This document shows positions 6,293-50,550 of a DNA stretch of 64,000 nt, in pieces. The position numbers and the translations under genes are program-made. Every line of letters begins with the position of its first letter. The stretch's first letter is position 1. Below the pieces are notes generated by a model. It was not told the origin of the DNA, did no database searches, and was given only the letters and a program-made list of their open reading frames with translations. This stretch comes from Sphaerimonospora thailandensis (GTDB lineage: Bacteria; Actinomycetota; Actinomycetes; Streptosporangiales; Streptosporangiaceae). The stretch covers positions 62,001 through 126,000 of the forward strand of contig NZ_BOOG01000011.1 of NCBI RefSeq assembly GCF_016863115.1, in the 5' to 3' direction.

Positions 6293-7669
6293 ATGACCCG
6301 CGTTCTCAAGGCCGCGCAGGACAATCTCTGGATGCACTTCACCCGTCACGGCGCTTACGACGAGGTCGAGGTGCCGATGATCGTCCGAGGTGAGGGCGCC
6401 TACGTCTACGACATCAACGGCAGGCGCTACCTCGACGGGCTGGCGGGGTTGTTCGTGGTCCAGGTCGGCCATGGCCGCGTCGAGCTCGCCGAGGCCGCCG
6501 CGAAGCAGGCCCAGGAGCTGGCGTTCTTCCCGCTGTGGTCCTACGCCCATCCGAGGGCGGCCGAGCTGGCCGAGCGGCTGGCCGGGCTCACTCCCGGCGA
6601 CCTCAACCGGGTCTTCTTCACCACCGGCGGCGGTGAGGCGGTGGAGTCGGCGTGGAAGCTCGCCAAGCAGTACTTCAAGCTCCGCGGCAAGCCGCTGAAG
6701 ACGAAGGTCGTCAGCCGGGCCATCGCCTACCACGGCACGCCGCAGGGCGCGCTGTCCATCACCGGCATCCCGGGGCTGAAGCAGGACTTCGAGCCGCTGG
6801 TGCCCGGGGCGATCAAGGCGCCGAACACCAACCTCTACCGGGCCGACGAGATCTCCGGCTTCGACGGGCTGGACAAGGACGCGGAGGCGTTCGGCCGCTG
6901 GGCCGCCGATCAGGTCGGCAAGGCCATTGAGATGGAGGGCCCCGACACCGTGGCCGCCGTGTTCGTCGAGCCGGTGCAGAACTCCGGCGGCTGCTTCCCG
7001 CCGCCGCCCGGATACTTCCAGCGGCTGCGCGAGATCTGCGACACCTACGACGTGCTGCTCGTCTCCGACGAGGTCATCTGCGCGTTCGGCCGTCTCGGCA
7101 CGATGTTCGGCGGGCAGAAGTTCGACTATGTTCCGGACATCATCACCTGCGCCAAGGGGCTGACCAGCGGCTACGCTCCGATCGGCGCCATGATCGTGTC
7201 CGAGCGGCTGTTCGAGCCGTTCCGGCACGGCACGACGATGTTCGCGCACGGCTACACCTTCGGCGGTCACCCGGTGTCCGCCGCCGTGGCTCTGGCGAAC
7301 CTCGACATCTTCGAGCGCGAGGACCTGCTCGGCCACGTGGCCGCCAACGAGCCGGTCTTCCGCGGCACGCTGGAGAAGCTGCGCGACCTGCCGATCGTCG
7401 GCGACGTCCGCGGGTCGGGCTACTTCTACGGAATCGAACTGGTCAAGGACAAATCAACCAAGCAGACGTTCAACGAGGAGGAGTCCGAGCGGCTGCTGCG
7501 CGGCTTCCTGTCGAAGGCGCTGTACGACGCGGGGCTCTACTGCCGGGCCGACGACCGTGGTGACCCGGTTGTCCAGCTCGCTCCGCCGCTGATCTGCGGG
7601 CCCAAGGAGTTCGACGAGATTGAGTCGATTCTCCGTTCTGTCCTCACCGAGGCGTGGGCTCGCCTCTGA
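6293..7669 (+). CDS. Class III (omega-type) aminotransferase
   Basis: This PLP-dependent class III aminotransferase (omega-amino acid:pyruvate type) has 458 aa from this start. The PLP lysine is in TCAKGLTSGYAPIGAM (about residue 288), the preceding VSDEVICAFGRLG holds the PLP-ring Asp, and FFTTGGGEAVESAWKLA is the phosphate-binding region. I chose ATG 6293 because GGGAAGG precedes it with good spacing; an in-frame ATG at 6260 has no such site. Alanine dehydrogenase follows 70 nt downstream. That suggests transamination onto pyruvate to give alanine, which the dehydrogenase reconverts to pyruvate. The amino donor is unknown (putrescine, taurine or beta-alanine are possibilities). Confidence 0.9.
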   Translation: MTRVLKAAQDNLWMHFTRHGAYDEVEVPMIVRGEGAYVYDINGRRYLDGLAGLFVVQVGHGRVELAEAAAKQAQELAFFPLWSYAHPRAAELAERLAGLTPGDLNRVFFTTGGGEAVESAWKLAKQYFKLRGKPLKTKVVSRAIAYHGTPQGALSITGIPGLKQDFEPLVPGAIKAPNTNLYRADEISGFDGLDKDAEAFGRWAADQVGKAIEMEGPDTVAAVFVEPVQNSGGCFPPPPGYFQRLREICDTYDVLLVSDEVICAFGRLGTMFGGQKFDYVPDIITCAKGLTSGYAPIGAMIVSERLFEPFRHGTTMFAHGYTFGGHPVSAAVALANLDIFEREDLLGHVAANEPVFRGTLEKLRDLPIVGDVRGSGYFYGIELVKDKSTKQTFNEEESERLLRGFLSKALYDAGLYCRADDRGDPVVQLAPPLICGPKEFDEIESILRSVLTEAWARL

Positions 7670-7723
7670 CGGTTACCCTCGTACGGCTGCGCCCATCGGC
7701 GCGCGGACTTTGCCGAGCACCGT

Positions 7724-7741
7724 ATGAAAGGACTCTTTCAT
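7724..7741 (+). promoter_or_regulatory. Inverted repeat enclosing the ald ribosome binding site
   Basis: ATGAAAG (7724-7730), loop GACT and CTTTCAT (7735-7741) form a perfect 7-bp dyad. It contains the AAAGGA Shine-Dalgarno (7727-7732) and the first two bases of the ald start codon (7740-7742). Folded, it would mask translation initiation. It may be a translational control element, or a coincidence of SD and start sequence. Confidence 0.4.
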
Positions 7742-8855
7742 GAAAATCGGTGTGCCAACCGAGGTCAAGAACCACGAGAACAGGGTCGCCGCGACACCCG
7801 CCGGCGTCCACGAGCTGGTCCGCAGGGGTCACTCCGTCAGCGTCCAGAAGGGCGCGGGACTCGGCTCCCACATTCCCGACGAGGAGTACCTGGCCGCCGG
7901 AGCCGAGCTCGACGAGAGCGCGGACCGCGTCTGGGCCGAGTCCGAGCTGATCCTCAAGGTCAAGGAGCCGGTGGCGGAGGAGTATCACCGGCTCCGTGAG
8001 GGCCAGGTGCTGTTCACCTACCTTCACCTCGCGGCCTCCCGCCCGTGTACGGACGCGCTGCTGTCGGCCGGGATCACCGCGATCGCGTACGAGACGGTGC
8101 AGGCCGGCGGCACGCTGCCGCTGCTCGCCCCGATGTCGGAGGTGGCGGGCCGCCTCGCCCCGCAGGTCGGCGCCTACAACCTCATGCGAGTCAACGGAGG
8201 CCGGGGGGTGCTGCCCGGAGGCGTGCCCGGCGTTCCCCCCGCCAAGATCGTCGTCATCGGCGGCGGCGTCTCCGGTTTCAACGCCGCGCAGGTCGCCGTC
8301 GGCATGGGCGCGGATGTCACGATCCTCGACGTCAACATCGACCGGCTGCGCTACATCGACGCCATCTACCAGGGCCGGATGAAGACGATGGTGTCGACCT
8401 CCTACACGATCGAGCAGGCCGTGCTCGATGCGGACCTGGTCATCGGCGCGGTGCTGATCCCGGGCGCCAAGGCTCCGACGCTCGTCTCCAACGAACTGGT
8501 CGCACGGATGAAGCCGGGCGCGGTGCTCGTCGACATCGCGATCGACCAGGGCGGCTGCTTCGAGGACTCCCACCCGACCACCCACGACCAGCCGACCTTT
8601 CCGGTGCACGGCGCCGTCTTCTACTGCGTCGGCAACATGCCCGGTTCCGTGCCCAACACCTCCACCTACGCGCTGACCAACGCCACGCTGCCGTACGTGC
8701 TGAAGCTGGCCGATCAGGGCTGGCAGAACGCGCTCCTCGGCGACCCCGCGCTCCGGACGGGACTCAACACCCACGCCGGCACGGTGACCAACGGGCCGGT
8801 CGCGGTCGCGCACAAGCTGCCGTTCACGCCGGTCGACGTGGTCCTCGCCGCCTAG
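7740..8855 (+). CDS. ald: Alanine dehydrogenase
   Basis: NAD-dependent L-alanine dehydrogenase interconverts alanine and pyruvate plus ammonia. It has 371 aa, the standard length. The opening MKIGVPTEVKNHENRVAATP is the family signature, and the substrate-binding Lys75 (KVKEP) and catalytic His96 (TYLHLA) are in place. The Rossmann motif is VVIGGGVSGFNAAQVA, and DIAIDQGGCFEDS holds the conserved Asp region. It lies directly downstream of the class III aminotransferase on the same strand, so the two probably form an alanine-cycling pair. Confidence 0.97.
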   Translation: MKIGVPTEVKNHENRVAATPAGVHELVRRGHSVSVQKGAGLGSHIPDEEYLAAGAELDESADRVWAESELILKVKEPVAEEYHRLREGQVLFTYLHLAASRPCTDALLSAGITAIAYETVQAGGTLPLLAPMSEVAGRLAPQVGAYNLMRVNGGRGVLPGGVPGVPPAKIVVIGGGVSGFNAAQVAVGMGADVTILDVNIDRLRYIDAIYQGRMKTMVSTSYTIEQAVLDADLVIGAVLIPGAKAPTLVSNELVARMKPGAVLVDIAIDQGGCFEDSHPTTHDQPTFPVHGAVFYCVGNMPGSVPNTSTYALTNATLPYVLKLADQGWQNALLGDPALRTGLNTHAGTVTNGPVAVAHKLPFTPVDVVLAA

Positions 8856-8879
8856 GAATACGACTTAGGGCAGCGTGAT

Positions 8880-10370
8880 CTAGCGGAGGCCGAGACCCTT
8901 GCGCAGGTCGCGCGCGGTCACCAGGACGTGCGCGACCTCGGCGGGAGTCGGCCAGGGAGCCGTGCCCGGACGCAGCAGGGTCGCCCGCACCGAGCAGAGA
9001 TGCTCGATGGAGGTCGCGTGCAGACCGCTGGTCTCGGCGAGGCGGCCGATCGGGTCCGCCTGCTCCGGCAGCCCCCGGATGACCAGATCCCAGGTGCCGA
9101 TTATCTCGATCAGGTCGCGCTCGCCGGGTGCCGGCTCGCCCCGGCGTCCGGAGGCGAGCACCGCCAGCTCCGCCCGCGCGGACTGTTCCGGCGTCACCGG
9201 GCGGTCCCAGTACGGCGGAGGCGGATAGAGCAGGGGTTCCTCCCCATGGGGGCAGGCGAGCACGGCGCGCAGCTCCGAGGCGGCCCGGCGGTGGCCCCGC
9301 GCGGCGGCCATCCGGAACCAGTGCCGCCCTCCCGTGAGGTCACCGTGCTCGGAGACCAGCAGCAGCCCCAGGTGGTAGGCGGCCTCGGGATCGTCGGCGG
9401 CGGCGGCAAGACCGAGCCAATGGCCGGCCACCGCCCGTTCGCCCATCTCCACGCAGACGATGCCCGCCATGCGCAGACCGTCGACGTGCCCGGTGCCCGC
9501 GGCCAGTTCGAAGTACGCCCGCGCGGTGGAAAGGTCCCTCCTGGCCAGTGCGAGGCCGCCGAGACGGCAGGCGGCGCCGGGGTGATCCGCCCGGGCCCGG
9601 AGCGCGAGCCGGTAGAACGTCCGCGCCCGATCGTCGTCCCGGAGTGCCTGCCGCAGCAGACCCAGATGGTAGGCGCCCTCCGCGTGGCCGCCGCGGGCGG
9701 CGTACTCCCACCATTGGCCGGCCTCGGTCTCGTCGCCGGCCGCATACCCGAGGACGCCGAGGTCGTGGGCGGACCGCAGCTCACCCTCCAGAGCCGCCTT
9801 CACATGCCAGTGACGGGCTGCGGTGATGTTCCCCTCGTCCTCACACAGCAGGCCGAGCCGCCGGGCCGCTCGGCCCGAGCCGTCCTCGGCCGCCGTCTCG
9901 AGCCAGCGCCGCGCGGTCGGCATGTCGTCCCGCCGGTCCAGCAGAAGAACGGCCAGGCGGAACGCGGCCTCCGCGTCGCCGGCTCCGGCCGCGAGCTCGT
10001 ACCAGCTCATCGCCTCTGACGGCGTGCCGTGCCGCTGGTGCCAGATGCCCAGGTTGAACGCGCTGTCGACGTTTCCCGCCTGGGCGGCCCGCTCCCACCA
10101 CTGCCTGGCGGCCCACCGGTCCCCGCGCTCGGCGTACCGGCGGCCGAGACGGTGCGCCGCGTCCGGGTCACCGGCTCGGGCAGCGGCGAGTAACGCCGCA
10201 TCCCGCGGGACCTGGACGCCCTGGTCTTGGACGCCCTGAACCTGGACGCCTTGGACCTGGACCTCCCGGACCTGGATGCCCCGGAGTGGGATGTCCGGCC
10301 GGGCCGGCGCCGCCTCGGTGGTTCCCACGAAAGTCATGGGAGACAGCGTGACACGTAACCTGGCCATCAC
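8880..10370 (-). CDS. Sel1/TPR-repeat protein
   Basis: This 496-aa protein contains about nine Sel1-like tetratricopeptide repeats between residues ~55 and 370, with the pattern A...LG.L....GD...A..W.E.AA..G, for example AHDLGVLGYAAGDETEAGQW. Such solenoids mediate protein-protein contacts. The N-terminus has a repetitive VQVQGVQ stretch (~30-53) encoded by tandem 15-18 bp units at about 10203-10275. The C-terminal ~120 residues are a non-repeat region I do not recognise. GTG 10370 is the upstream start; ATG 10337 is an alternative. There is no signal peptide. Convergent with ald, with only 24 nt between them. Confidence 0.75.
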   Translation of the reverse strand: MMARLRVTLSPMTFVGTTEAAPARPDIPLRGIQVREVQVQGVQVQGVQDQGVQVPRDAALLAAARAGDPDAAHRLGRRYAERGDRWAARQWWERAAQAGNVDSAFNLGIWHQRHGTPSEAMSWYELAAGAGDAEAAFRLAVLLLDRRDDMPTARRWLETAAEDGSGRAARRLGLLCEDEGNITAARHWHVKAALEGELRSAHDLGVLGYAAGDETEAGQWWEYAARGGHAEGAYHLGLLRQALRDDDRARTFYRLALRARADHPGAACRLGGLALARRDLSTARAYFELAAGTGHVDGLRMAGIVCVEMGERAVAGHWLGLAAAADDPEAAYHLGLLLVSEHGDLTGGRHWFRMAAARGHRRAASELRAVLACPHGEEPLLYPPPPYWDRPVTPEQSARAELAVLASGRRGEPAPGERDLIEIIGTWDLVIRGLPEQADPIGRLAETSGLHATSIEHLCSVRATLLRPGTAPWPTPAEVAHVLVTARDLRKGLGLR

Positions 10371-13149: not shown

Positions 13150-13461
13150 TCCAGAGCGTTTCGGCCGACACGTTTGGCTGGCACGTTTTGGCTGGCACGA
13201 GCGTTTTGGCGGGCGCGGGACCGGCGGTTGAGAACATCCCGATCCCCGGAGTGGTCGTCGTCGAAGAACACAGAGGGTGAAGGGTTGTGTCGACAGAGTG
13301 TTCGAGGTAGGGTTGGGGCAGTCGTTACGGGTGAGCTTAGCTGGCGGGCCGTTCGAGGCCATGCGCCGAGTGATGAAGTAGCCATTTCCGCATCAGGAAG
13401 GTCCCTGGTCCTGATGGCCGGGGATGGTCGTTGCTTTCGACTCGGTGAGGGGGTGCCCGCC
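13150..13461. other. Intergenic region with short tandem repeats
   Basis: This 312-bp region contains no convincing gene. It has two adjacent copies of a GTTTTGGCTGGCACG-like unit (about 13171-13199) and a third degenerate copy (13203-13213). It also holds the candidate SOS box at 13290-13305. The open frame that enters from 13174 continues into the DUF222 gene, but it has poor codon character and no ribosome site before 13395. Confidence 0.5.
13290..13305. promoter_or_regulatory. Near-match LexA (SOS) box
   Basis: TCGACAGAGTGTTCGA matches the actinobacterial SOS box TCGAAC-N4-GTTCGA at 10 of its 12 defined positions; only the inner AC of the left arm differs (CA). It lies 157 bp upstream of the DUF222-HNH start. 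Mycobacterial members of this family (13E12 repeat genes) are known LexA targets, which supports the reading. Confidence 0.5.
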
Positions 13462-16353
<2,892 letters not shown>

Positions 16354-16618: not shown

Positions 16619-17617
16619 TCAAAGCCAGTGCCAGGTGATGTCGGCCTTGGCACGCCGCTCGGCCATGTACTCTGCGAAGCCCGCGCGACCGGCGGCGGCG
16701 AGGGTGCGGAGGTCGGTGGGGTCGGCGGGGCGGCGTTCGCGGACGACGCCGAGCAGGTGGGCCTTCCCGTGGGCGACGGGGCCGACGACGGTTCCCTCAG
16801 GGGCGGCGCGCAGGGGTTCGGGCAGGTCGAGGGCGGGGCCGTCGACGGTGGTGACGGTGATTCGGTCGCGGGAGGCGAGCGCCCGGGTGAGGGCGGCATC
16901 GGGGTCGGAGGTGCCTGCCAGCTCGGCGAGACGATCTTCGGGGCCTTCCGCCCACAGCGCCCAGACCTGGTCGAACTCGGCCGGGTTACGCGCCAGATAG
17001 TCGTGTGCCGTCTCCTGCTCGATGCGGATGCGGACCCGCTGTCTGAGGGCCAGGCCGAAGATGTGACTGGTGTAGGCAGTCTCGTTCAGGCCGACGGCGG
17101 CGAGCCAACGCGTCATGTCGGCGCGGCTGCGCAGGCCGTTCCTGATCCGGTAGGCATCGGACGCCTGCTGGATCTCCTCCTGGGTGGGCGGGGACTCCAT
17201 GCCGGTCATGTCGCTCAGGATGCAGTAGTCGATCAGCTCATCCGGGATCGTGGTGTCCCGCTCGGCCCGGGTTCGCAGGGTGAGCAGCGCGTTCTGGATG
17301 AGCAGGCCGAAGCCGTCCACGGTGACGACCCGGCCGGAGGCCCAATGGGTGGAATGATCCACGGTCCAGGGCACGCCGTCGTCGGCGGGGGCGGTCAGCG
17401 CCACACTTCCCCCGTCGGGGTGGGCCAGCACCAGGTCGTAGTCGACCATGGGGCTGCCGGCCCGAACGTCGGCGACGAGCTGGGCGCGAACGGCAGGTCG
17501 GGTCTCGCTCCACTCGGCGACGGTCCGCCGGGCCTCGGACACGTCGTCGCGGCGGCGTGGCAGCGTCCGCAGCAGGGCCGCAGCTTCGGTGAGGGCGGCG
17601 TCGAATGTGCTGGTCAT
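16619..17617 (-). CDS. PpiC-like putative peptide-maturation protein of the RiPP locus
   Basis: This is a 332-aa soluble protein. The C-terminal half resembles the foldase/parvulin-type (PpiC-related) accessory proteins found next to peptide-modifying enzymes: a helix set around AYRIRNGLRSRADMTRWLAA, then VGLNETAYTSHIFGLALRQ, then HDYLARNPAEFDQVW and a final PVAHGKAHLLGVVRERRP strand region. I believe it corresponds to the family annotated 'putative peptide maturation system protein', but that is from memory. Its start is 9 nt after the ATP-grasp stop, so the two are co-transcribed. It may chaperone or present the precursor peptide. Confidence 0.65.
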   Translation of the reverse strand: MTSTFDAALTEAAALLRTLPRRRDDVSEARRTVAEWSETRPAVRAQLVADVRAGSPMVDYDLVLAHPDGGSVALTAPADDGVPWTVDHSTHWASGRVVTVDGFGLLIQNALLTLRTRAERDTTIPDELIDYCILSDMTGMESPPTQEEIQQASDAYRIRNGLRSRADMTRWLAAVGLNETAYTSHIFGLALRQRVRIRIEQETAHDYLARNPAEFDQVWALWAEGPEDRLAELAGTSDPDAALTRALASRDRITVTTVDGPALDLPEPLRAAPEGTVVGPVAHGKAHLLGVVRERRPADPTDLRTLAAAGRAGFAEYMAERRAKADITWHWL

Positions 17618-17626
17618 GGGATGGTT

Positions 17627-18616
17627 TCACCTGTGCGATTCGGCGGCGATGAGCCATTCGGCGATGGAGGCGGCGATGGGCAGGCCGGTCATGGTCTCGA
17701 TCCAGCCCCACTGGCCTGCGGGGTTGATCTCCAGGTACACGTACTCGCCTTCGGGAGTGACGATCATGTCGATGCAGCCGTAGTGCAGGCCGAGCGAGGC
17801 GACCAGCTCCAGGCAGCGGCGCTCGACGTCGTCGGGCAGGCGGTGGACCGCGTAGGTGGAGAAGGTCTGTTCGTAGTGGCGGTAGTCGTACCGGGTCGCG
17901 CGTGATCCCTGAGAGTGGATCTCGGCGGAGAACACCTGATCGCCCACTACGGTGATCCGCAGCTCGATGGCCTTCTTGACGTACGGCTGGAGGATGGCGG
18001 GGGACAGGGCCAGCCGGTGCCTGTCAGTGAGACGGCGGCGGCTGACCGGAGTGGTGTAGTGCGCATGGTCCTCACCATCGATCCGGAACTCGACGAACTC
18101 CACCTCCTTGGCGATCAGCTCGCCTCCGGCCTCCGCCCAGAACGGGATGAGGTCCTCATCGTCGTTGGTGATCAGGGTGTCGGGGGTGGTGAACCCCAGC
18201 GCAGCCGCGACACCGAGGTTGACGAGCTTGTTCTGGGTGCGGATGATGTCCATCGTTCTGGCCGGCAGCCAGCGGCTCTCGACGGTGTGCTCCCACCCGA
18301 GCAGCAGGATGGTGGCGATCTTCTCGACGTACTTGCGATGGTTGTCGTCGGCGACCGATTCGGGCGCGTGCGGATGCGTGGGATGACGGTTCCAGATCGC
18401 GGTGAACTGGGAGCAGTCGTACTCACGGCCGTCGATGCGCAGGACGTGCCGCCAGGACCCGCCGGTCAGGCGCGAGCTGATCGCGCTGTCGGCGGGGTAA
18501 CCGCCCGGGTCCCACCACAGGAACTCGGCACCTCGCTCGACGAGTTCGGGGACGACCAGCTTCACCGACTCGTCGTCCTTGGCGCTGAGTAGCAGAATCA
18601 CCGAATTTCCTATCAT
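17627..18616 (-). CDS. ATP-grasp peptide ligase (MvdC/MvdD-like RiPP maturase)
   Basis: This is a 329-aa ATP-grasp enzyme of the graspetide-synthetase type, which forms ester or amide crosslinks between side chains of a precursor peptide. The family pattern is visible: an N-terminal pre-ATP-grasp domain with AIWNRHPTHPHAP, then RTQNKLVNLGVAAALGF, the ATP-binding LIAKEVEFVEF, ELRITVVGDQVFSAEIHSQ, and the catalytic metal loop EYVYLEINPAGQWGWIE. A 53-aa precursor gene lies 54 nt upstream and a PpiC-like gene 9 nt downstream. The exact crosslink chemistry is not predictable from sequence. Confidence 0.85.
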   Translation of the reverse strand: MIGNSVILLLSAKDDESVKLVVPELVERGAEFLWWDPGGYPADSAISSRLTGGSWRHVLRIDGREYDCSQFTAIWNRHPTHPHAPESVADDNHRKYVEKIATILLLGWEHTVESRWLPARTMDIIRTQNKLVNLGVAAALGFTTPDTLITNDDEDLIPFWAEAGGELIAKEVEFVEFRIDGEDHAHYTTPVSRRRLTDRHRLALSPAILQPYVKKAIELRITVVGDQVFSAEIHSQGSRATRYDYRHYEQTFSTYAVHRLPDDVERRCLELVASLGLHYGCIDMIVTPEGEYVYLEINPAGQWGWIETMTGLPIAASIAEWLIAAESHR

Positions 18617-18621
18617 CAGAG

Positions 18622-18659
18622 GCGGCGTGCCCGGTAAGCGCGGGCACGCCGCTTTTTTT
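18622..18659 (+). terminator. Strong stem-loop between precursor and ATP-grasp genes, T-tract on the plus strand
   Basis: GCGGCGTGCCCG (18622-18633) and CGGGCACGCCGC (18641-18652) form a perfect 12-bp stem with a 7-nt loop, followed by seven T (18653-18659). It reads as an intrinsic terminator for plus-strand (antisense) transcription. In the minus-strand RiPP mRNA the same stem follows an A-run and sits 6 nt before the ATP-grasp start, where it could limit read-through, stabilise the precursor message or mask the start. Confidence 0.7.
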
Positions 18660-18670
18660 CACACCCTGTT

Positions 18671-18832
18671 TCAGGGAATGACGATGTCGCGCTTGTCGAC
18701 GGTCTGTCCCTGGTGGGCGCTGGCGGTCCACGCGCACGCGACCCACTGCATGTCCCTGCCCCCGACGATGTCGTCCAGGGCGTCCTCGGGCAGCTCGGCG
18801 ACGCCGTCGATGTCGTCCAAGCGAATGGTCAT
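18671..18832 (-). CDS. RiPP precursor peptide (53 aa)
   Basis: The frame has ATG at 18832 and stop at 18671-18673, preceded by an excellent GGAGGAGG Shine-Dalgarno (plus-strand 18841-18848). The predicted leader is acidic, MTIRLDDIDGVAELPEDALD, and ends in DIVGG at residues 21-25, a double-glycine-like boundary. The remaining 28 residues (26-53) form a putative core with Trp30, Cys33, Trp35, Ser/Thr and Lys47, plus acceptor acids Asp27, Asp46 and Asp49. The position immediately before an ATP-grasp ligase, the size and the leader style argue for a real precursor. It is the third gene from the 3' end of the operon. No homologous core is known to me. Confidence 0.75.
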   Translation of the reverse strand: MTIRLDDIDGVAELPEDALDDIVGGRDMQWVACAWTASAHQGQTVDKRDIVIP

Positions 18833-18835
18833 TTC

Positions 18836-19441
18836 TTACACCTCCTCCCGGGAATGCTTGATCAAACTCTCGCGGCGCCGCCTTGGATCTTGGTTGGAGG
18901 TGACTTGCACCGCACTACGGCCTCTGCGCCAGCCGGGCTTGACCAGGCCGGACTCGTAGGCGATGACGACGAGTTGGGCACGGTCGCGAGCCTGGAGCTT
19001 CATCATCGTGCGGCTCGCATGCGTCTTGGCCGTCGCGGGCGACAGGTACAGCATGGCGGCGATCTCGTCGTTGGTCATGCCGCCGCCCACGAGTGTGAGA
19101 ACCTCGCGTTCCCGTTCGGTGAGCAGATCGAGGCAGGCGGCGATCCGGGGTTCCTTGGCCTCGAAGACGTACTCGTCCAGCTCGAACGTGGTGAGCATTG
19201 TGATCTTCGTGTCGGCGAGTCGGGGATCCGCGCCGATGCGGCGGGTGGCGGTCAGGCCGTCCATTCCCGGCACCCGGATGTCCATCAGCGCGACGTCCGG
19301 GTGATGCTCATGAGCCAGACGTACGGCTTCCGCGCCCACACCGGCCTCGGCGATCACTTCCATGTCGTCCTGGGCGTCCAGCAGGGCACGGAACCCGGCT
19401 CGTACGAGTGCCTGATCGTCGGCGAGCAGGACTGGGATCAC
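18836..19441 (-). pseudogene. NarL/LuxR-type response regulator with an internal deletion
   Basis: Translation from GTG 19441 (GAAGGAG at 6 nt) gives a good receiver N-terminus (VLLADDQALVRAGF, PDVALMDIRVPGMDGL, MLTTFELDEYVFEA), then jumps directly to LTEREREVLTLVGGGMTNDE and an intact LuxR-type HTH. About 55 residues that normally hold the receiver's conserved Lys, last helix and linker are missing; 11 unrelated residues bridge the gap. The C-terminus carries ~30 extra residues beyond the usual GLVKPGW end. I read this as a decayed regulator, though the frame is open. Its stop is 3 nt from the precursor start, so transcription could still serve the RiPP operon. Confidence 0.65.
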
Positions 19442-19615
19442 TTGGACTCCTTCGCCGGCTCCGCCGCGTCGACGGGCCGACGGCGCCAGAGCCGGGACAC
19501 GGCAAGCCCGGCCACCCGCGTCCACAACCGGACATTCCCGTGCGGATCCTGACGTCGTGAGTCATGCTGAGGTGACCCGCAGTGTGGTGTGGGCGACAGG
19601 GGCGGAGGTCGCGGG

Positions 19616-21538
19616 ATGAGAGGTGCCATGGTCGCGTCGCTGGGGCTGGTCACGCTTGCCGGCCTGGTGACCCCGCCGACAGACCTCTCGCCGACAGTCC
19701 TCCCGCCGACAGTCCTCGTGTCGGCAGTCCTCCCGCCGGCAGTCCTACCGTCGGCCTTGACCGCGCCCGGGCCGTACGCCGCGGACCCGGCGGGGACGTC
19801 GGCCCGGCGCAGACCGGGCCCCAAGCGGCCGGTGGCGGAGGGGTACGGCGGGGCGGTGGCGACCGTGGACCTGGACGCGAGCCGGGCGGCGCTGAAGGTG
19901 CTGCGTCAGGGCGGCAACGCGATGGACGCCGCCGTGGCCGCCGCGGCGACGCTCGGCGTGACCGAGGCGTACTCGGCGGGCCTGGCGGGCGGCGGCTTCA
20001 TCGTCTACTACGACGCCCGCACTCGGAGGGTCACCACGATCGACGGCCGGGAGACCGCGCCGCGGGCCATGACCGCCACGACGTTCGAGGGAATCCCGTT
20101 CGACGAGGCCGTGACCAGCGGCCTGTCCGTCGGGGTGCCGGGCAGCGTCGCGCAGTGGGACCTGGCGCTGCGCCGGTTCGGCACGATGTCGCTGCGGCAG
20201 GCCCTGCGCCCGGCGATCGAGACGGCAGAGAAGGGCTTCGTCGTCGACCAGACCTTTCATGACCAGACCGCGCAGAACGCCGACCGCTTCAAGGACTTCA
20301 CCTCGACCGCCGCCCTCTTCCTGCCCGGTGGCCGCCCGCCGCCCGTCGGGTCGGTATTCCGCAATCCCGACCTCGCCAGGACGTACCGGGAGCTGGGCAG
20401 GCGCGGGCCGGCCTGGTTGTACGGCGGGGCGCTCGGCCGGGAGATCGTGGCCACGGTCAAGCGCCCGCCGGTGGCTCCCGGCGTCACCCGGACGGTCCGG
20501 GCCGGGCTGATGGAGAAGGCCGACCTCGCCGCGTACCGGGCGATCGAGCGGCCGCCCACCAAGGTCACCTACGAGGGCCTCGACGTGTACGGCATGGCGC
20601 CGCCGTCGTCGGGCGGATCGACGGTCGGCGAGGCGCTGAACATCCTGGAGGCGCTGCCGGGGGTCGAGTCTCGAAGCCAGGAGCCGCGGACCCAGCGGCT
20701 GCATCGGTATCTGGAGGCTTCGCGGCTCGCGTTCGCCGACCGCAACGCGTATGTGGGCGACCCGGCCCACGTGAACGTGCCGCTCGACGGGCTGCTGTCC
20801 GATGTCTTCGGCAAGGAGCGCGCCTGCCTGATCGGGCCGGTCGCCCTGCCGCATCCGGCGGCGCCGGGTGCGCCGGACGGGCCCTTCACGGCCTGCGCCG
20901 CGCCGTTGTCGCCCGCGCCGTCCCGGGGTTCCTCACCCCAGGGGGAGCAGCCGGAGGGGCCGGAGACGACCCATCTCGTGGTCGCCGACAAATGGGGCGA
21001 CGTGGTGGCGTACAACATCACGATCGAGCAGACCGGCGGCAGCGGCATCGTGGTGCCCGGCCGCGGGTTCCTGCTGAACAACGAGTTGACCGACTTCACC
21101 TTCGGCCCCGCGCCGGGTGACCCCAACCTGCCCGCGCCGGGCAAGCGGCCCCGCTCGTCGATGGCGCCGACGATCGTGCTCAAGGACGGCAGGCCGTGGC
21201 TGGCGGTCGGATCGCCCGGTGGATCGACGATCATCACGACCGTGCTCCAGATCCTGGTCAACCGGATCGACTTCGGGATGTCGCTGCCCGAGGCGATCGC
21301 CGCTCCGCGCGCGACCCAGCGCAACACGGCGGCCACGCAGGCCGAGCCCGCGTTCCTCGACCGGTACGGCGCGGCGCTCACCGCTCTCGGTCACACGCTT
21401 GTCCCGGTCCCGGGCCCGCCGGCCGGGGAGATCGGCGCGGCGACCGGACTGGAGTTCCTCGGCGGTGGAAGGGTGCAGGCGGTCGCCGAGCCCTCCCGGC
21501 GCGGAGGCGGCAGCGCCCTCGTGCTGAGAACGCGCTGA
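19616..21538 (+). CDS. ggt: Gamma-glutamyltransferase (secreted)
   Basis: This N-terminal-nucleophile hydrolase cleaves gamma-glutamyl bonds such as glutathione. It has 640 aa. The autocatalytic Thr is the first T of PETTHLVVADKWG (about residue 451) and starts the small subunit; MAPTIVLKDGRPWLAVGSPG and GGSTIITTVLQILVN are the family C-terminal motifs, and GGNAMDAAVAAAATLGVTEA the N-terminal one. A signal-peptide-like segment MVASLGLVTLAGLV is followed by a Pro/Val-rich repeat (LPPTVL). ATG 19616 has GGAGG upstream; GTG 19589 is an alternative. Confidence 0.95.
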   Translation: MRGAMVASLGLVTLAGLVTPPTDLSPTVLPPTVLVSAVLPPAVLPSALTAPGPYAADPAGTSARRRPGPKRPVAEGYGGAVATVDLDASRAALKVLRQGGNAMDAAVAAAATLGVTEAYSAGLAGGGFIVYYDARTRRVTTIDGRETAPRAMTATTFEGIPFDEAVTSGLSVGVPGSVAQWDLALRRFGTMSLRQALRPAIETAEKGFVVDQTFHDQTAQNADRFKDFTSTAALFLPGGRPPPVGSVFRNPDLARTYRELGRRGPAWLYGGALGREIVATVKRPPVAPGVTRTVRAGLMEKADLAAYRAIERPPTKVTYEGLDVYGMAPPSSGGSTVGEALNILEALPGVESRSQEPRTQRLHRYLEASRLAFADRNAYVGDPAHVNVPLDGLLSDVFGKERACLIGPVALPHPAAPGAPDGPFTACAAPLSPAPSRGSSPQGEQPEGPETTHLVVADKWGDVVAYNITIEQTGGSGIVVPGRGFLLNNELTDFTFGPAPGDPNLPAPGKRPRSSMAPTIVLKDGRPWLAVGSPGGSTIITTVLQILVNRIDFGMSLPEAIAAPRATQRNTAATQAEPAFLDRYGAALTALGHTLVPVPGPPAGEIGAATGLEFLGGGRVQAVAEPSRRGGGSALVLRTR

Positions 21539-49795: not shown

Positions 49796-50550
49796 TCCAG
49801 CTCAACCACGTCACCAAGCGGTACGGCGACGCCGTCGTCGTCGACGACGTCTGCCTGACGATCCCCAAGGGCGGCGTGACCTCCGTCATCGGGGCGAACG
49901 GCGCGGGGAAGTCGACGCTGCTGTCCATCATCAGCCGGCTGCTGCCGGCTGACAGCGGCTCGGTCACCGTGGACGGCATGGACGTGGCCACCACCCCGAG
50001 CGAGCGGCTGGCCCGCCGGCTGGCCGTACTCCGCCAGGAGAACCACATGAGCGTACGGCTCACCGTGCGCGAACTGGTGGCCTTCGGGCGCTTCCCGCAC
50101 TCGGGGGGCCGGCTGACCTCCCATGACCTGGCCCTGGTGGACGAGGCCATCGGCTACTTCGAGCTGACCGACCTGGCCCACCGCCACCTCGACCAGCTCT
50201 CCGGCGGGCAGCGCCAGCGCGCCCATGTGGCCATGGTGCTCTGCCAGGACACCGACTACGTGCTGCTGGACGAGCCGCTGAACAACCTCGACATGCGGCA
50301 CTCGGTGCAGATGATGCGCCGGCTGCGCCGTATGTCCGACGAGCTCGCCAAGACCGTGGTCCTGGTCGTGCACGACATCAACTTCGCGTCCTGTCACTCC
50401 GACACCGTCATCGCGATGAAGAACGGGAAGGTGATCGCGCAGGGGGACACCGCCACGATGATGTCCCCAGATGTGCTGCGCGAGGTCTACGACCTGGACA
50501 TCGACGTCCACGAAGTGGGCGGTCAACGCATCGGCGTCTACTTCTCCTGA
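49792..50550 (+). CDS. Iron-siderophore ABC transporter ATPase (FatE/YclP type)
   Basis: This 252-aa ATPase has Walker A GANGAGKST, the signature LSGGQRQRAHVAMVL, Walker B DYVLLDEPLNNLD and the switch His in VLVVHDINFA. GTG 49792 overlaps the permease stop. It completes the operon. Confidence 0.96.
   Translation: MIQLNHVTKRYGDAVVVDDVCLTIPKGGVTSVIGANGAGKSTLLSIISRLLPADSGSVTVDGMDVATTPSERLARRLAVLRQENHMSVRLTVRELVAFGRFPHSGGRLTSHDLALVDEAIGYFELTDLAHRHLDQLSGGQRQRAHVAMVLCQDTDYVLLDEPLNNLDMRHSVQMMRRLRRMSDELAKTVVLVVHDINFASCHSDTVIAMKNGKVIAQGDTATMMSPDVLREVYDLDIDVHEVGGQRIGVYFS

Follow-up and report, generated by a model that had tools for sequence, protein, structure and literature searches.

The window analysed here, a 64,000-nucleotide stretch of the genome of Sphaerimonospora thailandensis (contig NZ_BOOG01000011.1, positions 62,001 to 126,000), very probably carries a gene cluster for a graspetide related to rosaritide (group 21), with a distinct core type. 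The cluster comprises genes for a short precursor, an ATP-grasp ligase and a TIGR04500 partner protein. On sequence grounds the locus is a genuine graspetide cluster, its group is already known, and the core in the window carries an unusual single substitution. The class is assigned with high confidence, the ring number and bonding with moderate to low confidence. A preliminary description of this DNA had proposed a graspetide-like locus for a ribosomally synthesized and post-translationally modified peptide (RiPP) whose precursor had gone unannotated, which is supported by the ligase, the TIGR04500 protein and the conservation of the short open reading frame (ORF). Its further suggestion of a new family does not hold at the system level, as the pair of ATP-grasp ligase and TIGR04500 protein constitutes graspetide group 21, of which rosaritide from Micromonospora rosaria (synthetase MirB, partner MirC) is already characterised (PMC13097080, 2026). 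The elements considered are the following.

18671..18832, minus strand: precursor gene, 53 amino acids, with a 25-residue leader (GG end) and a 28-residue core, RDMQWVACAWTASAHQGQTVDKRDIVIP (ORF and profile)
18839..18849, minus strand: ribosome-binding site of the precursor, GGGAGGAGGTG, within the 3' end of the response-regulator ORF
18622..18652, minus strand: RNA hairpin in the precursor-ligase gap, in the window a 12-bp stem and a 7-nt loop (covariation)
17627..18601, minus strand: graspetide synthetase, MvdD-like ATP-grasp, with a probable GTG start at 18601
16619..17617, minus strand: TIGR04500 partner, MirC-like, resembling SurA and with a parvulin-like region
18836..19441, minus strand: NarL/LuxR-type response regulator, directly upstream of the precursor

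The order on the minus strand is response-regulator ORF, 53-residue ORF, ATP-grasp ORF and PpiC-like ORF, so that the ligase and PpiC-like genes lie downstream on the same strand, as first described. The sequence before the precursor start reads GGGAGGAGGTGTAAGAA-ATG and holds a complete AGGAGGTG ribosome site; the GGGAGGAGGTG element lies six bases from the ATG and overlaps the stop codon of the regulator ORF. The strong ribosome site ascribed to this ORF is thus near-perfect, and the acidic leader ending in GG and the 28-residue core were also borne out. At its fullest the ATP-grasp ORF spans 17627-18616 (ATG at 18616), although the ligase probably starts at GTG 18601, since an AGGA site precedes this codon and a TTG is found at, or within one to two codons of, the same position in N. 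zeae, N. solani, S. carneum and genome G138.

A conserved short ORF upstream of related ATP-grasp genes had been set beforehand as a test of the proposal. Close relatives of the ligase occur in six named genomes (three Nonomuraea, and Planotetraspora, Herbidospora and Streptosporangium), and a homologous short ORF is located just upstream of the ligase in all six. For a broader comparison, 94 ATP-grasp regions from 250 genomes of the family (eight additional matches of at least 225 bits being left out), one class-level locus and the six named ones were combined into a sample of 101 loci, reduced to 96 when four duplicate regions and a broken gene of N. ceibae were dropped. A leader profile built from 15 seeds, supplied by 14 of the 96 loci, scores at least 5 bits, the threshold used, upstream of 81 of the 96 ATP-grasp genes and, with the seed loci removed, of 67 of 82. 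The same profile is found at 0/96 loci on the opposite strand and at no more than 1/96 in each of five shuffles, which places the short ORF beyond chance. In the reverse search, a profile of eight window-type precursors was run over 341 whole genomes of the family and gave 17 matches in 14 genomes, every one of them adjoining an ATP-grasp gene. The possibility of an isolated chance ORF was rejected on these three counts. One of the 17 adjoining genes is broken (genome G168, N. ceibae by its match to locus L014); at L014 (7962-8999) the same precursor precedes a ligase that breaks off at about residue 115, and the transporter that follows it likewise seems interrupted.

The window core type is present in eight of the 14 genomes with matches (8/341). 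Genomes G640 and G651 are taken to be N. solani and N. zeae, as the profile scores agree. Differences among the eight precursors at codon positions 1, 2 and 3 amount to 0.26, 0.14 and 0.36 in the leader and to 0.51, 0.50 and 0.45 in the core, and between the window and N. zeae the nonsynonymous (dN) and synonymous (dS) distances are 0.09 and 0.27 for the leader and 0.60 and 0.52 for the core. Purifying selection on the leader is read from the pooled data and from six of the seven pairs that include the window. The core varies freely apart from one serine and two aspartates invariant in all eight members (Ser38, Asp46 and Asp49 of the precursor, core positions 13, 21 and 24). A Cx[WY] motif is found in seven of the eight cores, and a cysteine at core position 8, five residues ahead of the invariant serine, is likewise present in seven; Thr11 occurs in the window and in N. 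zeae. With a leader, a core that contains Ser, Thr and Lys as possible donors and Asp as acceptors, and a synthetase gene alongside, the precursor agrees with the general graspetide pattern. The claim of a core of a new kind therefore stands in so far as this is a conserved type of its own, unlike that of rosaritide and restricted to 8/341 genomes, while the class of system to which it belongs was already known.

Several core types occur across the family loci. The VSW/VTW...EW cores (L110-L133) number 17 and are 17-23 residues long; 13 of them have a single acidic residue and could therefore form at most one graspetide bond. In a further type (L134-L138, L140, L141 and L144), two cysteines flank a turn in six of eight cores, serine and threonine replace both cysteines in the other two, and a single cysteine is never seen (0/8), a pattern which suggests a disulfide beside an ester.

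The best NCBIfam match of the ligase is TIGR04187 (226.6 bits), and its MvdD pre-ATP-grasp domain is recognised by PF21068 (39.2 bits against a cut-off of 27). A profile of the ligase finds graspetide synthetase structures (e.g. 5ig8 and 7mgv) as its best Protein Data Bank (PDB) matches over the whole length, with its DYR motif aligned to their DWR, and the protein is 81% identical to the ligase of N. zeae. The AlphaFold model of the ligase (mean predicted local distance difference test score, pLDDT, 48.8) was set aside and not used. Group membership was assessed in a similarity network for which BLAST scores were computed locally on our own sample, the published threshold being an alignment score of 70, and for which 18 ATP-grasps of the same family lacking a partner in the stretch taken served as outgroups. 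Locus L192 (class-level genome G339) acted as a stand-in for MirB and as the rosaritide-type reference, because its core, LPRNGAGSSKTIDDIPGGGRPDTDTDFD, agrees with the published rosaritide residue numbers except for Thr in place of Ser25. At scores of 60 and 70, all 96 ligases, the window and L192 included, form one component that contains none of the 18 outgroups. By this synthetase criterion the window enzyme falls within graspetide group 21, in a separate subclade. A new system at the family level was rejected on the grounds of the known group 21 pair and of the component shared with the rosaritide-type locus.

The partner protein matches TIGR04500 with 203.1 bits (cut-off 180) and is 80% identical to that of N. 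zeae. Matches to TIGR04500 were obtained in 82 of 250 family genomes (63 above the cut-off) and in 22 of 394 class genomes (15 above it), and a partner gene lies beside the ATP-grasp gene in 98 of the 101 loci, duplicates included; among the 96 loci, no partner was found in the stretch examined for three (L123, L129 and L147). With Pfam Rotamase_2 it scores no more than 14.7 bits, where 27 would be needed. The AlphaFold model of the partner (mean pLDDT 76.3, from six sequences) resembles SurA/PrsA chaperones (best Foldseek E 1.1e-6): residues 93-331 resemble SurA (8qpv, VIA Z 9.5, 147 aligned, root-mean-square deviation, rmsd, 3.7), and residues 214-297 resemble parvulin domains, weakly, as Z stays under 8 (Z 7.5-7.9, rmsd about 2.5, 80-85 residues; best-given match 6xd8, Z 7.9, 80 aligned, rmsd 2.6). 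In contrast to these proteins, the cytosolic N-terminal 80 residues are without a clear counterpart among the matches listed. The first catalytic histidine of parvulin active sites is missing in the window partner; this suits a chaperone rather than an isomerase, although the parvulin likeness of the model is weak. The gene described as encoding a "PpiC-like maturation protein" is confirmed, although its product is better called a synthetase partner or chaperone, by analogy with MirC. The C-domain of MirC is said not to resemble the peptidyl-prolyl isomerase domain of Cj1289 (PMC13097080); in contrast, parvulin-like matches, weak as they are, were obtained with the model of the window partner. 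A RiPP recognition element-like fold, weakly suggested for MirC in the same source, is absent among the structure matches listed for the N-terminal domain of the window partner.

Between precursor and ligase genes, the hairpin at 18622-18652 is conserved across eight relatives, in which 92.9% of the cells pair and nine of 14 pairs have changed on both sides, a covariation score reached by none of 500 shuffles. Among 76 loci with a precursor and a gap of 30-450 bases, 59 gaps hold a stem scoring at least 10 and 43 beat all of 50 single-base shuffles. A T run of the terminator kind is found on the plus strand only and in the window only; for this reason the hairpin on the operon strand looks like a processing or stabilising element rather than a terminator.

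The preliminary description had seen no protease or transporter, which is correct for the window (no C39 peptidase match in its 64 kb) but not for the genome, in which two C39-peptidase transporters are encoded, on contigs C61 and C53. In the sample as a whole, such a transporter is found in 59 of the 101 loci, duplicates included. The GG end of the window leader and the hydrophobic residues at -4, -7 and -12 fit the general rule for C39 peptidases. With the peptidase-containing ATP-binding cassette transporter (PCAT) of the N. zeae cluster, the C61 protein shares 71.9% identity over 698 residues and the C53 protein 34.5%. The transporter that matches the C61 protein best of all belongs to L130, a VSW-type cluster of the same genus. 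Ahead of the C61 gene are a leader start (MKKISIDDLRF) and an 82-residue ligase fragment, 51% identical to the ligase of L130; at this locus (L195) the leader start is fused to the ligase fragment (7546-7925) and the orphan PCAT is intact (7938-10292). By sequence comparison, the neighbours of the C61 PCAT are the apparent remains of a deleted second cluster. A partner-frame match between L112 and L195 was rejected as evidence, the frame overlapping the ligase gene, so that a 6-bit match is all that speaks for a trace of TIGR04500 at L195. The idea that a decayed PCAT lies close to the window cluster was also rejected, as the N. zeae PCAT frame matched only where it overlaps the TIGR04500 gene; the same frame gives a weak match to a distant transporter-like stretch (49849-50445). 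Export in trans by the orphan PCAT is plausible, and the absence of a local exporter is explicable, since a transporter so close to that of the N. zeae cluster is encoded elsewhere in the genome.

Taken together, the following sequence of events is proposed. The hairpin would probably stabilise or separate the precursor message, so that precursor is made in excess of enzyme. Like MirC with MirB, the TIGR04500 protein would join the synthetase in a complex, which is predicted to form esters between Ser/Thr side chains in the core and the acceptors Asp21 and Asp24. As the window core type offers two acceptors, no more than two conventional bonds are expected, and the predicted mass loss is 18 or 36 Da, against 54 Da for rosaritide. 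Once the leader has been cut off behind GG, the product would leave the cell through a C39-peptidase transporter acting in trans, the orphan PCAT on C61 being the likeliest candidate.

Several results weigh against this reading or parts of it. The TIGR04187 score of the ligase lies below the family cut-off of 350, and the window is only 36.6% (ligase) and 29.7% (partner) identical to L192. At a network score of 80 the component splits into 54 members (with the window), 41 (with L192) and one, while at 50 it is joined by 17 of the 18 outgroups, so that the group boundary depends on the threshold. The precursor reaches no NCBIfam cut-off, TIGR04497 (GRASP_targ_2) scoring 14.2 against 32, and none of the other seven window-type precursors matched that family at E 0.1. 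Between the leaders of the window and N. ceibae, dN (0.106) exceeds dS (0.080). A second Ser/Thr, at core position 14, is kept in seven of the eight members and is Ala in the window only. Finally, export in trans is an inference, a PCAT lying in cis in only four of the eight (L009, L012, L014 and L102).

The substitution at position 14 bears most directly on the number of rings. A second bond, if made, would need Thr11, Thr19, Lys22 or Cys8, and it is a real, if lesser, possibility that the product is monocyclic, with Ser13 as sole donor of one ester, the second Asp structural, and the loss of Ser14 a step from two rings to one. Ser13 is indeed the only hydroxyl residue invariant in all eight members, and related core types seem content with one bond, as in the VSW...EW cores. 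However, the invariance of both Asp suggests two bonds, and Thr11 is available in the window as in N. zeae. It is quite improbable that Cys8 acts as a native donor, forming a side-chain thioester to Asp21 or Asp24; the window peptide would be the clearest case for such a bond, because the second Ser is gone while the Cys and both Asp are kept, and it would be the first native thioester graspetide.

The missing second Ser, together with the lack of a nearby exporter, the 48 codons lost from the upstream regulator, the broken ligase beside the same precursor in N. ceibae and a second cluster of the window genome already reduced to remnants, may also be seen as signs of a decaying cluster that yields little or no product. 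This is unlikely, as all three genes are intact and near their relatives in N. zeae, the ribosome site and hairpin are preserved, and intact genes are also kept by L010, L011 and L013, which likewise have no PCAT in cis. That the peptide belongs to another RiPP class, for instance a lanthipeptide-like one, with the ATP-grasp gene merely adjoining, is highly improbable. The precursor is matched about as weakly by TIGR04497 as by the plantaricin C lantibiotics (14.5, far below the cut-off), but all 17 profile matches adjoin an ATP-grasp gene, and neither a dehydratase nor a cyclase was noticed in the neighbouring genes, the window not having been scanned gene by gene for them.

Set against a paralogue that this genome encodes on contig C33, the response regulator has lost about 144 bases (48 codons, in frame) in its receiver domain, and its Pfam receiver match ends at profile position 94 of 111. 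As a pathway member it was rejected, a same-strand upstream match being present in only few loci; it is probably outside the pathway and not conserved with the cluster. Convergent with the cluster is a DUF222/HNH endonuclease ORF of up to 1059 amino acids (13174-16353, plus strand) with long low-complexity stretches rich in Gly, Pro and Asp. Divergent from the operon is a gamma-glutamyltransferase gene (19589-21538, plus strand; 368.7 bits against a cut-off of 357.85), for which there is no indication of cluster membership. Among plasmid records, the best match (49.8%) is to an unannotated stretch of Nonomuraea gerenzanensis.

With this assignment, graspetides that depend on a partner would reach beyond their single characterised example into a distant subclade with another residue pattern, and one enzyme pair goes with many unrelated-looking cores. 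The role of the TIGR04500 partner, be it in the choice of leader, core or ring number, becomes testable by swaps between subclades, and the hairpin and the orphan PCAT suggest in concrete terms how the cluster is expressed and its product exported, which the original finding did not. A literature search, with most subscription papers and supplements outside its scope, returned nothing on this core type, on a native thioester graspetide or on the hairpin, which is no proof of absence.

Among known systems, the microviridin synthetases resemble the window ligase in their MvdD-like pre-ATP-grasp and ATP-grasp domains, in full length and in the D-aromatic-R motif; PDB entries 5ig8, 5ig9, 7m4s and 7mgv represent the synthetases MdnB, MdnC and CdnC. 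Microviridins differ from the window peptide in their core motifs and, to our knowledge, need no TIGR04500 partner. PMC8939145 lists TIGR04500 ("PpiC-related maturation", cluster 145) with actinobacterial ATP-grasp loci and predicts that it modifies graspetides, whereas the later work on MirC points to a partner or chaperone (PMC13097080). The closest system is that of rosaritide, in 2026 the first characterised example of its class, with the precursor MirA, MirB (TIGR04187), MirC (TIGR04500) and, as exporter, a PCAT; three ester bonds link S8, S9 and T11 of rosaritide to D22, D24 and D26, and the product is formed only with MirB and MirC both present, which copurify (PMC13097080). Both clusters encode a TIGR04187-type synthetase followed by a TIGR04500 partner, with a double-glycine precursor upstream, and the window ligase shares a component at score 70 with the rosaritide-type locus. 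They differ in the PCAT, present in the rosaritide cluster and absent in cis from that of the window, and in the core: rosaritide combines SSxT donors with DxDxD acceptors, whereas the window core has S13-A14 and DxxD, neither of the rosaritide motifs, and DxDxD is missing from all eight members of its type.

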